In this document: piece after piece, positions 3,693-8,901 of the stretch | How positions within the stretch are numbered: the first letter of the stretch is position 1 | How the letters are laid out: every line of letters starts with the position of its first letter | DNA from: a virus | Length of the DNA: 25,081 nt | Strand: one strand, 5' to 3' | Virus record (IMG/VR): IMGVR_UViG_3300037153_000257 | Span: 1 to 25,081 of that record | Position numbers and translations under genes: made by a program | The notes under the pieces: model-generated | Database searches by the model: none | What the model saw: only the letters and a program-made list of their open reading frames with translations | Told to the model about the DNA's origin: nothing

Positions 3693-3940
3693 TGGTGAGC
3701 CTGGTCGATGTGATTGAGCGCAGCAGTACGAGCGGCGTAGGCGAAGGCGACATTGCCCTCGATCAACTCGGCTCCTTTCATGCCGTGCAGCGCGATGCAG
3801 TAGCGGCACACCCACCAGTCGCCGTAGGGGGTAGATCGTGGTCTTCACCGGCTGATCCCACGGGATTTCAGGGAAACGCTCGCGCAGGGCGCCCTCGTCC
3901 AGCGGAGTGAAACTGGGATTCGACTCCGGTAGCGACGCAC
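3687..3940 (-). pseudogene. small Cys-containing protein gene with apparent indels
   Basis: Two overlapping frames together give one sensible protein. The first reads LPESNPSFTPLDEGALRERFPEIPWDQPVKTTIYP. After the CCCCC run (3827-3831) the adjacent frame continues YGDWWVCRYCIALHGMKGAELIEGNVAFAYAARTAALNHIDQAHHD and stops at 3687. Removing one C from the run would join them. The upstream frame has no start codon, but one extra C near 3934 would connect it to GTG at 3940 (MRRLPESNPS). CRYC could be half of a zinc site. The stop overlaps the ATG at 3692 as expected for the train. Either the gene has decayed or the sequence has homopolymer errors. Confidence 0.6.
3912..3932 (+). repeat. 21-bp T-arm-like repeat, copy 2
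   Basis: Exact copy of 3661-3681 located at the 5' end of the disrupted Cys-containing gene. On the minus strand it encodes LPESNPS, the same peptide as in copy 1. Confidence 0.75.
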
Positions 3941-3970
3941 CAGAAGTGGCTTATCGTGCGTTCCGCTCAC

Positions 3971-4325
3971 AGGGGAACCTCGCCTAGGCCAGCCTGGCGG
4001 CGCCCAACCCCGCCGGGAGGAGTCACGCCTGGCCGTGCCAGGCCAAACCGTTCCGCGCCAGTCCGGGCCTCGACTTGCCCCGAGCCGGGGGAGCCTCGCC
4101 CCGTCTTGCCGCACCCGGCCCCGCCACGCCTTTGGGAAGCCGAGTCAGGCCGGGCCGGAACCAGCCTGGACTCGCCGCGCCACGTTAGGGAAGCCATACC
4201 CCACCCCGCCGAGCCCATCAGTGCCCAGCCGTGCCGAACGTGCCCGGCTAAGACGCTCCGTCCCGGACCCTGCCCGGCCGCGCCTGGACCTGCCGCAAGT
4301 AGGGAAGCCCTGCCATGCCCAGGTG
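3971..4325. repeat. CCNNG pentanucleotide tract A with purine-rich headers
   Basis: About 355 bp have no convincing gene but show clear five-base periodicity: successive units read CCTGG, CCGTG, CCAGG, CCAAA, CCGTT, CCGCG on the plus strand, mostly CCNNG. The phase is reset at short purine-rich headers near 3971, 4015, 4087, 4134, 4185 and 4298 (AGGGGAA, GGGAGGAG, GGGGGAG, GGGAAG, TTAGGGAAG, AGTAGGGAAG). The units are not identical, so it is a pattern constraint and not a simple tandem duplication. It lies downstream of the 61-aa gene in the transcription direction. Five is not a multiple of three, which argues against protein coding. Confidence 0.85.
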
Positions 4326-4331
4326 AGGCCG

Positions 4332-4517
4332 TCACGCGAGTGCAGCCTCCAGCTCGTCGGCGACATGCTCGAGCTGCTCGACGAGCTGCTCGACACGAAC
4401 GGCGAGCTCGCCGCCGTTCAGCTCGGCCCGGCGTGCGTCGGCGGCGCGGCACCGGAGGGCGCCGGTCGCGGAGGCAAGCCGGTCGAGAACACGGCCGAGC
4501 GCGGCGTAGGCGCTCAC
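4332..4517 (-). CDS. small coiled-coil protein (61 aa)
   Basis: The protein MSAYAALGRVLDRLASATGALRCRAADARRAELNGGELAVRVEQLVEQLEHVADELEAALA is largely helical, with heptad-like leucines in the second half. Its ATG overlaps the TGA of the 221-aa gene upstream (ATGA), so the two are probably co-translated and may work together. It ends just before CCNNG tract A. Family unknown. Confidence 0.7.
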   Translation of the reverse strand: MSAYAALGRVLDRLASATGALRCRAADARRAELNGGELAVRVEQLVEQLEHVADELEAALA

Positions 4518-5179
4518 GACTTCTTCCCCTTCGCGGCAGGCTCGTCAGCCGGCTCGGGCTCGTCGGCGTCGAGCTCGACGAGGCCGAGGAAACGGCCGTA
4601 GACGGGCCGCATCTCCGCCATCCCCTCGTAGGTGCCGGCGTCCTTCCACGCGACCCGGACGGTGTGCACGTCGAAGACGATCGGGTCGACCTCGACCGGC
4701 AGCCGGAACTGCCAGCCGGTGAAGATCGGCCGGGTGCGGACGGTGCGTGACCGTTGCACCCCGACCGTCTTTCTGAGCCAGTAGCCCTCCTGCCAGCGCT
4801 CAACGAGACCGGTCGGCCCGTCGAAGACGAGCGGGGCCTGCTCGGCGAGCGGGTAGATGCCGCGCAGCACGTCCTTGCCGCGCTTCTGCCGGGTCGCGCC
4901 GGCCTGCAGGCAGCGTAGGATGTTCCACGCCGGGACGACGATTTCCTGGCCGTTCAGGTCGGCGGGGCTCGAGATCAACGGGTTGGTGTAGAGGCCTCCG
5001 TAGAACTCGAGCCGGCCGATCTCCTCCTGGTCGGCCTCGGTCTTGTTGCGTTTCTTCGAGAGGCCGCCGATCGTCTTCACGAACTCGTCCAATGGGTCGG
5101 CGAGCCGTTCGTTGTGGGTGATCAGGGTTGAGGGGCCGCCGGCGGCCTTACTGCCGTCAGCGATCAGTGTGAGTTTCAC
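4514..5179 (-). CDS. conserved-type phage protein of unknown function (221 aa)
   Basis: The start is GTG at 5179, seven bases after a clear AGGAG; an ORF extending upstream into the five-base repeats is not credible. The protein begins MKLTLIADGSKAAGGPSTLITHNERLADPLDEF, then KKRNKTEADQEEIGRLEFYGGLYTN, VVPAWNILRCLQAGATRQKRGKDVLRGIYPLAE, and near the end GTYEGMAEMRPVYGRFLGLVEL. I recall similar proteins (LL..HN..L.DPL, E..GGLY, RGKDV, MRTRP.F..W, MRP.YGRF) as conserved hypotheticals in phage recombination or replication regions. The tail is acidic then Lys-rich. It is flanked on both sides by CCNNG tracts, an arrangement seen nowhere else here. Confidence 0.75.
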   Translation of the reverse strand: MKLTLIADGSKAAGGPSTLITHNERLADPLDEFVKTIGGLSKKRNKTEADQEEIGRLEFYGGLYTNPLISSPADLNGQEIVVPAWNILRCLQAGATRQKRGKDVLRGIYPLAEQAPLVFDGPTGLVERWQEGYWLRKTVGVQRSRTVRTRPIFTGWQFRLPVEVDPIVFDVHTVRVAWKDAGTYEGMAEMRPVYGRFLGLVELDADEPEPADEPAAKGKKS

Positions 5180-5223: not shown

Positions 5224-5815
5224 GAGGAAAGGGGAGCCATGTCTCGTTCACGCCATGCCTGGCCGTGCCGGGACTGGCCGCGCCGGGACTCGCCTGAGCC
5301 GTGCCAGGCCGCAACACGCCTGGCCTGGCCAGGTCCAACCGCGCCTCGGCTTGCCACGAAAAGGGGAGCCGTGCCCAACCCTGCCAATCCCGTCCAGGCC
5401 ACGCCTTGCCCCGACCGGCCCAGCCGGGCCTGCCCAGCCTCGCCATGCCGCGCCGCGCCCCGACGGACCCCGCCTGGAGTAGGGAAGCCGAGCCCAGCCT
5501 CGCCAGTCCTGGCCCCGCCGGACCGGCCCAGCCCCGCCGAAGCCCGGTCCAGCCTGGCCGGGCCGGGACATGCCGCGAATAGGGAAGCCTTGCCGCGCCG
5601 GGCGGAGCCGGGCGCAGCCGGGCCTTGCCCGGGCTTGCCGCGCCGCGCCTCGACCCACCGCGCCGGACCCAACCCACCAAGCCCCGACGAGCCGCGACCC
5701 GGGAGGAGAGCCTCGCCCTGCCTGACCTCGCCCAGTCCGGCCAGGCCAGACCTCGTCCCACCTTGCCGCGCCTTGCCCGGCCAGACCATACCCGGCCCCG
5801 GAACGCACGCCTTCA
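5224..5815. repeat. CCNNG pentanucleotide tract B with purine-rich headers
   Basis: About 590 bp repeat the structure of tract A on a longer scale. Headers occur at about 5224 (GAGGAAAGGGGAG), 5358 (GAAAAGGGGAG), 5478 (AGTAGGGAAG), 5578 (AATAGGGAAG) and 5701 (GGGAGGAGAG), spaced roughly 100-135 bp. Each is followed by runs of CCNNG units such as CCGCG, CCGGG, CCTGG, CCATG. Long open frames across it on both strands arise from the composition (few A/T, hence few stops). It lies between the methyltransferase and the 221-aa gene, whose normal ribosome site begins just outside it. Confidence 0.88.
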
Positions 5816-5860: not shown

Positions 5861-5863
5861 AGG

Positions 5864-5905
5864 GGTGCTAGCGGAGGCTTACAGCGGTTCGACTCCGCTA
5901 GCACC
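5864..5905 (-). terminator. 12-bp hairpin after the methyltransferase gene, tRNA T-arm-like
   Basis: GGTGCTAGCGGA (5864-5875) and TCCGCTAGCACC (5894-5905) are perfect reverse complements with an 18-nt loop, starting one base beyond the methyltransferase stop. After the stem on the minus strand comes CCTGGTTTTCC, a weak U tract, so a terminator role is likely but not certain. On the plus strand the same bases contain GCGGTTCGACTCCGC, a tRNA-like T-arm, and a 7-bp acceptor-like stem, but there is no D or anticodon arm. Confidence 0.5.
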
Positions 5906-5906
5906 T

Positions 5907-6825
5907 TCAGGATCCGCCCACTTCAAGTAGTGACAACTGGCCTTCAGCTGCCTCGAGGTTCCGGCATGCGGTCTTGAAATAGCTCGGCTTCAACTCGACG
6001 CCGACGAAACGGCGCCCAAGCTTCAACGCCATATAGCCCTCGGAGCCGATCCCGACGAAAGGCGAGAAGACGAGATCGCCCGGATTCGACCATAGCTTCA
6101 CCGCCCGCTCGACGACGCCGAGCTGCAGAGGGGCGATGTGCCGCTCATCGGCATTGTCACGGGCAATCGCCACGTTCAAAACATCCGTCTCGCGGATGCC
6201 GCCCGGGTAGCCTTCACCGGCCCGATACCAGACCGGTGCCGCCCATTCGATCCACTCATCGGCGGTGATCCATCCGTCCGCGTTGTCGTAGCGTTGCGAG
6301 ATGCCGGCCCCGGATTGGTTCAGCGTTGTCGCCCGGTTTGCGGAACTGCAGCAGATAGTCGGCGAGAGCCATGTGCATCCGTGCCGAGTCGGTCGCAAGC
6401 GTCTTGAACAGCAGTCCCTGGTCTTTGGTGCGGATCGCTTTGACTTGCGGGTCTTTGTCGATTGCGACCTCGCCGTAGTAGACGAAGCCGCCGTCCTCCA
6501 TCGCGTTGATGACGGCGCCGCGGAAGTCGCGCAGCCCGGAGTAGCCGTCGAGGTACTTGACGGTCACCATCTGGCAGAGATGGACGCAGACGGAGCGTCC
6601 CGGCTTGACGACCCGCAGCAACTCAGGGATCAGGAACGAGTAGTGCTTGACGAGCTCTGCCAAGGAACGGGCGTTGCCCATGTCGCGGGGCGAGGCGGAG
6701 TAGACGTACATGCCGGGGAATGGCGGGGAGAACACCGCCAGCCCGACCGACTCGTCGGCGATCTCGGCAGCGCGTTCGACGCAGTCACCGAGCAGCAGAG
6801 TCCAGCGCTCACCGGCCCTATCCAT
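5907..6825 (-). CDS. beta-class DNA methyltransferase, interrupted by a frameshift
   Basis: Two frames make one enzyme that methylates adenine N6 or cytosine N4 in DNA. The first frame (6825 down to ~6310) has MDRAGERWTLLLGDCVE, motif IV as SPPF (residues 33-36), then LLRVVKPGRSVCVHLCQ and ADYLLQFRKPGDNAEPI. The second frame (~6310 to 5907) has WIEWAAPVWYRAG, VERAVKLWSNPGDLVFSPFVGIGSEGYMALKLGRRFVGVELKPSYF, which is motif I with its FxGxG loop. Motif IV before motif I is the beta order. The join is a GGGG run (6308-6311); one G fewer would restore the frame. The start overlaps the helicase stop by 8 bp. No restriction endonuclease is adjacent, so an orphan or anti-restriction role fits. Confidence 0.8.
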
Positions 6826-8789: not shown

Positions 8790-8815
8790 CGCAAACTGAT
8801 CCTTTGCTTTGGTCT

Positions 8816-8867
8816 GGGCGTGGGGTCCCGATACGGAGAGTTGAGGGACCCGCGCCCGCTTTGTTTT
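8816..8867 (+). terminator. long hairpin between lysis and helicase operons
   Basis: GGGCG-TG-GGGTCCC (8816-8829) pairs with GGGACCC-G-CGCCC (8845-8857) in a 12-13 bp stem with one bulge and a 15-nt loop. The T-rich tail (GCTTTGTTTT, 8858-8867) is on the plus-strand side, so as an intrinsic terminator it would stop plus-strand (antisense) RNA. For the minus-strand operon it would be only a hairpin between two gene groups. Confidence 0.5.
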
Positions 8868-8901
8868 GGAGGGAGGCTAGCCGCGGCGTGGCCGGGTCGC
8901 G

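Follow-up and report, generated by a model that had tools for sequence, protein, structure and literature searches.

The question raised by this locus is what keeps a five-base pattern running through nearly 600 bp of a phage genome. The stretch, at positions 5224-5815 of the 25,081-nucleotide virus record IMGVR_UViG_3300037153_000257 (here called the window), had been described in a first-pass annotation as an array of CCNNG pentamers, interrupted by purine-rich headers and lying beside the gene of a 221-aa protein. The window contains capsid and terminase genes. The nearest cultured phages by capsid protein are mycobacteriophages (about 43% identity), and the source phage is apparently an uncultured actinobacterial one. 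At 5907-6825 on the minus strand, a DNA methyltransferase gene is split into two overlapping frames, which match consecutive parts of phrog_67 and therefore point to a frameshift near 6256-6398.

The identity of the stretch to itself at a lag of five bases was 0.535, far above that of 500 dinucleotide-preserving shuffles (0.326±0.018, maximum 0.378), and it was also raised at lags 10, 15 and 20. A second region, tract A (3975-4325), was found to be the same kind of sequence, with a lag-5 identity of 0.458 versus 0.309±0.022 in shuffles; the original stretch is called tract B. A phase model of tract B gave a minus-strand profile of G (0.96), G (0.84) and C (0.82) or T (0.13), followed by two positions (NN) at background frequency. 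The pattern therefore reads most naturally as GGY-NN on the minus strand, the one that also encodes the neighbouring genes. Autocorrelation and profile together confirm the grammar first proposed, with C, C and G fixed and the middle bases free, and also the view that the pattern is kept while the sequence diverges, the GGY triplet being held and NN being at background. The boundaries first given were correct within ~25 bases, as the units run from 5797 to 5250 and the last tail extends to ~5229. Another 100-bp stretch of the window, 8801-8900, also has a raised lag-5 identity (0.48).

That tract B is a translated repeat protein or a slippage artefact is scarcely conceivable. Some frames are open for at least 200 aa, but stops are rare anyway in GC-rich GGCNN units. 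The period does not fit codons, as first reported. Units of 4 and 6 nt in tract B also break the frame, and in related arrays none of the three frames of the array strand is free of stops (9, 10 and 4 in the upstream tract of phage SapYZU01). A protein encoded by a long open frame was rejected because of these frame-breaking units and the stops in relatives, and the non-coding role envisaged at first is borne out. Recent slippage, already doubted in the first pass, is excluded by the background frequency of NN.

On the minus strand, the pentamers are organized in runs (Table 1) of 17-23 units in tract B and 8-21 units in tract A, and several of the tract B runs are interrupted by 4-nt and 6-nt units. 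The purine headers AGGGAAG and GGGGAG correspond to GGCTTCCC and GGCTCCCC on the minus strand, where they close each run at its 3' end. They are real, as GGGRAGCC occurs 11 times in the window and 8 of these occurrences fall inside tracts A and B, but what had been taken for a header is the 3' tail of a guide read backwards. The window and nine related contigs together supply 84 such ends, with the tail consensus GGC-T-Y-C-C-C-T and about six unconstrained bases between the tail and the next GGC. An invariable 3' tail after the repeats is thus present in the clade of the window, as a motif rather than a structure. Folding of the guide RNAs gave z scores of -1.2 and -2.2, barely better than shuffles and with no convincing structure. 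Since the arrays also flank the 221-aa gene on both sides, tract B is no structured leader of this gene, as had been suggested.

Promoter and terminator scans gave nothing beyond chance. An Rfam search returned one sub-threshold match in the window and only ordinary tRNAs in 13 related loci, and no DNA similarity to tract B was found in phage and plasmid collections. Two tRNA T-arm-like hairpins with a TTCGACTCC loop, at 5863-5906 and ~3885-3925 on the plus strand, flank the pair of arrays. Both are opposite to the guide strand, and the one at 5863-5906 has a matching 7-bp acceptor-like stem. They could be inverted tails, an att core or a terminator.

Table 1. Features of the array region in window coordinates.
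Feature	Position	Strand	Basis
Tract A: four or five further putative vrRNA units and a 3-unit stub (4325-4303)	3964..4325	-	lag-5, phase model
Tract A units	4294-4191, 4181-4137, 4130-4091, 4079-3975 (last with internal tail near 4017)	-	
Nine units of guide A4, NN = AA GA CC CT GC AC TT CT AC	4035..4079	-	NN also present in one guide of IMGVR_UViG_3300005937_000014
Candidate vap, 61-aa ORF, start overlapping vipr stop by 4 nt	4332..4517	-	RTGA overlap in relatives, AF2
vipr, 221-aa RAMP protein (phrog_4652)	4514..5179	-	phmmer, profile, AF2, Foldseek
Tract B: five putative vrRNA units of 17-23 GGY-NN pentamers	5250..5797	-	lag-5, phase model
Tract B units	5797-5708, 5698-5585, 5574-5485, 5474-5366, 5355-5250	-	
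3' tail of last tract B guide, GGCTCCCCTT	5229..5238	-	tail consensus
Tract B 3' tail, GGCTCCCCTT	5361..5370	-	tail consensus
Tract B 3' tail, GGCTTCCCTA	5480..5489	-	tail consensus
Tract B 3' tail, GGCTTCCCTA	5580..5589	-	tail consensus
Tract B variant 3' tail, GGCTCTCCTCCC	5701..5712	-	

The 221-aa protein belongs to phrog_4652, the function of which is listed as unknown. In phmmer searches, the window protein alone matched the Vipr protein of Escherichia phage SUSP1 (PDB 36pp) with E=1.6e-9, and a profile of 72 sequences matched it with E=2e-50. The AlphaFold2 (AF2) model (pLDDT 94.8) had as its best Foldseek matches the Csm3/Cas7 subunits of type III and VII CRISPR complexes. The protein is a phage-encoded CRISPR RAMP-like protein, Vipr. 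It has the Cas7-like RAMP fold of the Cas7/Csm3 backbone of class 1 CRISPR-Cas systems, in which, as proposed for Vipr, repeated RAMP subunits bind a guide RNA. The window differs from these systems by a degenerate pentamer repeat and by guide information that would be spread over NN pairs. No CRISPR repeat-spacer array is present in the region, which contains only degenerate pentamers, and no cas family was found among the window proteins tested.

VIPR was described in Escherichia phage SUSP1 in a 2026 bioRxiv preprint (PMC13142463) as a system of a phage RAMP protein (Vipr), a vap gene and GGY/NN guide RNAs (vrRNAs). The SUSP1 vrRNAs consist of alternating GGY and NN, carry 3' tails and are encoded in long flanking intergenic regions (PMC13142463). 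They were shown to be guides, and they read DNA with one base skipped per NN pair (PMC13142463). The window contains a phage Vipr homolog, GGY-NN repeats beside its gene and an invariable 3' tail. As in SUSP1, the long intergenic regions that flank vipr hold coding-strand tandem repeats, with several guides per locus, an invariant tail after the repeats and a small, here putative, accessory gene downstream. In contrast, the tail of the window is a short UYCCCU without evident structure, whereas that of SUSP1 is a structured pseudoknot, and some of the pentamers are replaced by irregular units of 4 and 6 nt. Furthermore, 9-16 repeats per vrRNA were reported for the SUSP1 and P. fulva clades (PMC13142463), a range exceeded by the tract B guides and extending neither as low nor as high as that of tract A. 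This mismatch is not taken to exclude membership, because the published figure is descriptive and VIPR architectures vary among seven types (PMC13142463).

Relatives were found by scanning IMG/VR for the header-plus-pentamer pattern, which returned unrelated contigs with the same arrays, and in these contigs the arrays mostly adjoin a homolog of the 221-aa gene. Protein similarity was used to fetch 92 loci, 80 viral and 12 bacterial. Dense GGY pentamers were present within 2.5 kb of vipr on its own strand in 81 of the 92 loci and on the opposite strand in three. The link between array and 221-aa gene suspected at first is thereby borne out, as GGY arrays track vipr and its strand across loci, and tracts A and B are therefore very probably two VIPR guide-RNA arrays flanking their own vipr gene, with about 9-10 guides together. 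This assignment draws on what was observed here, namely the grammar, its strand, the linkage to vipr, the RAMP identity of the protein, the tail motif, a coupled ORF and the recurrence of the NN string of one guide in an unrelated phage. The same linkage bears on the proposal that the tract is a DNA element, that is, a coating or partition site, an origin or a recombination region, acting via the RecT-like annealing protein of the phage. A RecT-like gene is indeed present at 1062-1748 and the array is noncoding and periodic, but the arrays follow vipr and its strand even where the vipr region sits among tail genes, and the units bear a 3' tail motif with strand polarity. We consider such an element very improbable. 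Of the roles first listed, coating by a protein is possible; nothing points to a ParB site, an origin or a selfish repeat.

The grammar was also recovered in cultured phages, where the same arrays surround the same gene in Trine, LittleE, the Felix O1-like SapYZU01 and the Pseudomonas phage Medea1. Among these, the GC-rich relatives have GGC-NN tracts and the AT-rich one has GGT-NN tracts; compared with SapYZU01, the window favours GGC over GGT. LittleE (Mycobacterium) and Trine (Gordonia) resemble the window in having a phrog_4652 Vipr with coding-strand GGC-NN arrays, and differ from it by tRNA T-arm-like minihelices between the units and by a second gene that is longer, at about 128-189 aa. 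In LittleE (L049), the vipr pair and its arrays resemble an inserted cassette, in antisense orientation and with the tape measure gene on one side and the tail genes on the other. The minihelices, of about 41-45 nt, were detected by scan as repeated elements between vrRNA runs on the coding strand of L049, L083 and L084. The element of Trine (L048/L094) resembles them by eye, has a shorter acceptor stem and was not scored by the scan. They may be signals for tRNA processing (RNase P or RNase Z) that act as vrRNA tails, and minihelices between vrRNA runs are absent from the main text of the VIPR preprint (PMC13142463). Three other loci (L029, L035 and L043) carry GCCNN arrays and no homolog of the window Vipr by tblastn; they perhaps represent another VIPR type or have their vipr outside the fetched stretch.

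The start of a 61-aa ORF overlaps the stop of vipr, and the same RTGA overlap was found in all 12 clade relatives that have a separate small ORF. Its product is predicted to form one long helix (AF2 pLDDT 92.0) and matched no known family at the family cut-off. This ORF is probably the gene of a VIPR accessory protein (candidate vap). The single helix has no recognised DNA-binding fold, and Felix O1-like phages have a longer gene beside vipr. In five relatives (L062, L064, L066, L069 and L071), Vipr is longer at its C terminus (238-255 aa) and the separate overlapping small ORF is missing, which suggests a Vipr-Vap fusion. The preprint distinguishes six vap families, vap1-6 (PMC13142463).

In total, 322 guides were decoded and their NN strings were compared between loci, with shuffled NN order as the control. 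A score of at least 14 was reached by 29 guide pairs from different loci and by none after NN shuffling. Some of these pairs come from near-identical phages, and several do not. Over nine consecutive units, guide A4 matches a guide of the 68-kb contig IMGVR_UViG_3300005937_000014, with all 18 NN bases in common while 4 of the 27 scaffold bases differ (score 18, versus 12 for the best shuffle). That contig belongs to an unrelated phage, the Vipr of which is 52% identical to that of the window. In a second pair (L059-L063), 20 of 22 NN bases are common and 14 of 33 scaffold bases differ, so that 14 of the 16 differences sit in the scaffold (hypergeometric p 0.007). This per-position comparison is only suggestive, since NN similarity was the criterion for choosing pairs; the excess of NN sharing over shuffles is unaffected by that choice. 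Judged from these sequence comparisons, the NN dinucleotides rather than the GGY scaffold appear to carry the information.

The array might instead be an RNA or DNA scaffold for the RAMP protein without guide function, such as a decoy, a sponge or an autoregulatory element, in which the NN positions simply drift. The length and irregularity of the window guides would suit such a scaffold, as would the outcome of the target searches described below. However, unrelated phages share NN strings far more often than expected by chance, with differing scaffold bases, the L059-L063 differences are concentrated in the scaffold (with the selection by NN similarity noted above), and the SUSP1 vrRNAs were shown to be guides (PMC13142463). 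We therefore regard a non-guide scaffold as improbable.

No target of the window guides was found in 2.4 Mb of DNA scanned at skips of 0-3 with shuffled controls, the skip-3 results being contaminated by the arrays themselves. For all guides, skip-1 matches in the same 2.4 Mb showed no clear excess over shuffles (best score 19 versus 17). Searching the window itself revealed no target of its own guides, and there was no convincing target for three window guide cores scanned over IMG/VR with extension, for two shared guides against 50 whole phage records, or for two guides of distant relatives against 298 alphaproteobacterial genomes. One gene, present in seven contigs, matched guide B1 at 26 of 36 positions, 16 of which are required by the pattern, so it is not claimed as a target. 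In another locus (L124), a guide at 2313 has a candidate self-target at 3945, ~1.6 kb downstream on the same contig, where reading at skip 1 gives agreement at about 21 of the 24 NN bases (local score 19 versus 17 for the best shuffle).

With no window target found, the 1-nt skip rule, DNA targeting and repression are carried over from the preprint; transcription and RNP assembly are likewise taken from it rather than from observation here (PMC13142463). Under the VIPR reading, each guide would be a minus-strand run of GGY-NN pentamers closed by the short UYCCCU tail. If the system works as in SUSP1 (PMC13142463), Vipr subunits would line the repeats by binding their GGY scaffold, probably with one Vipr per pentamer, as we infer ourselves. 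The NN pairs would then be presented for base pairing with double-stranded DNA, with a gap of one base between successive pairs, and the genes silenced in this way would be those of rival phages or other mobile elements.

VIPR as a kind has been known since 2026, and the window locus is a new, somewhat unusual example of it. Its long guides, short tail, helical accessory ORF and irregular units may denote a subtype or one of the seven published types. Tentatively, and with the odds rather against it, the locus could represent an undescribed actinophage subtype, with long guides of 17-23 units, a minimal pyrimidine tail for processing or anchoring, a single-helix Vap that is translationally coupled to Vipr and fused to it in some relatives, and NN strings that unrelated phages retain or acquire anew as the GGY scaffold drifts.

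VIPR, the guide code of which skips bases, has been proposed as a relative of class 1 CRISPR and as its precursor. The present locus recovers this system independently, from raw sequence, and its clade contributes about 20 GC-rich phage contigs, the guides of which can be decoded. That the information lies in the NN positions rather than in the scaffold is supported here by sequence evidence separate from the E. coli experiments of the preprint, and the decoded NN strings provide a directly testable prediction of targets in actinobacterial phages.
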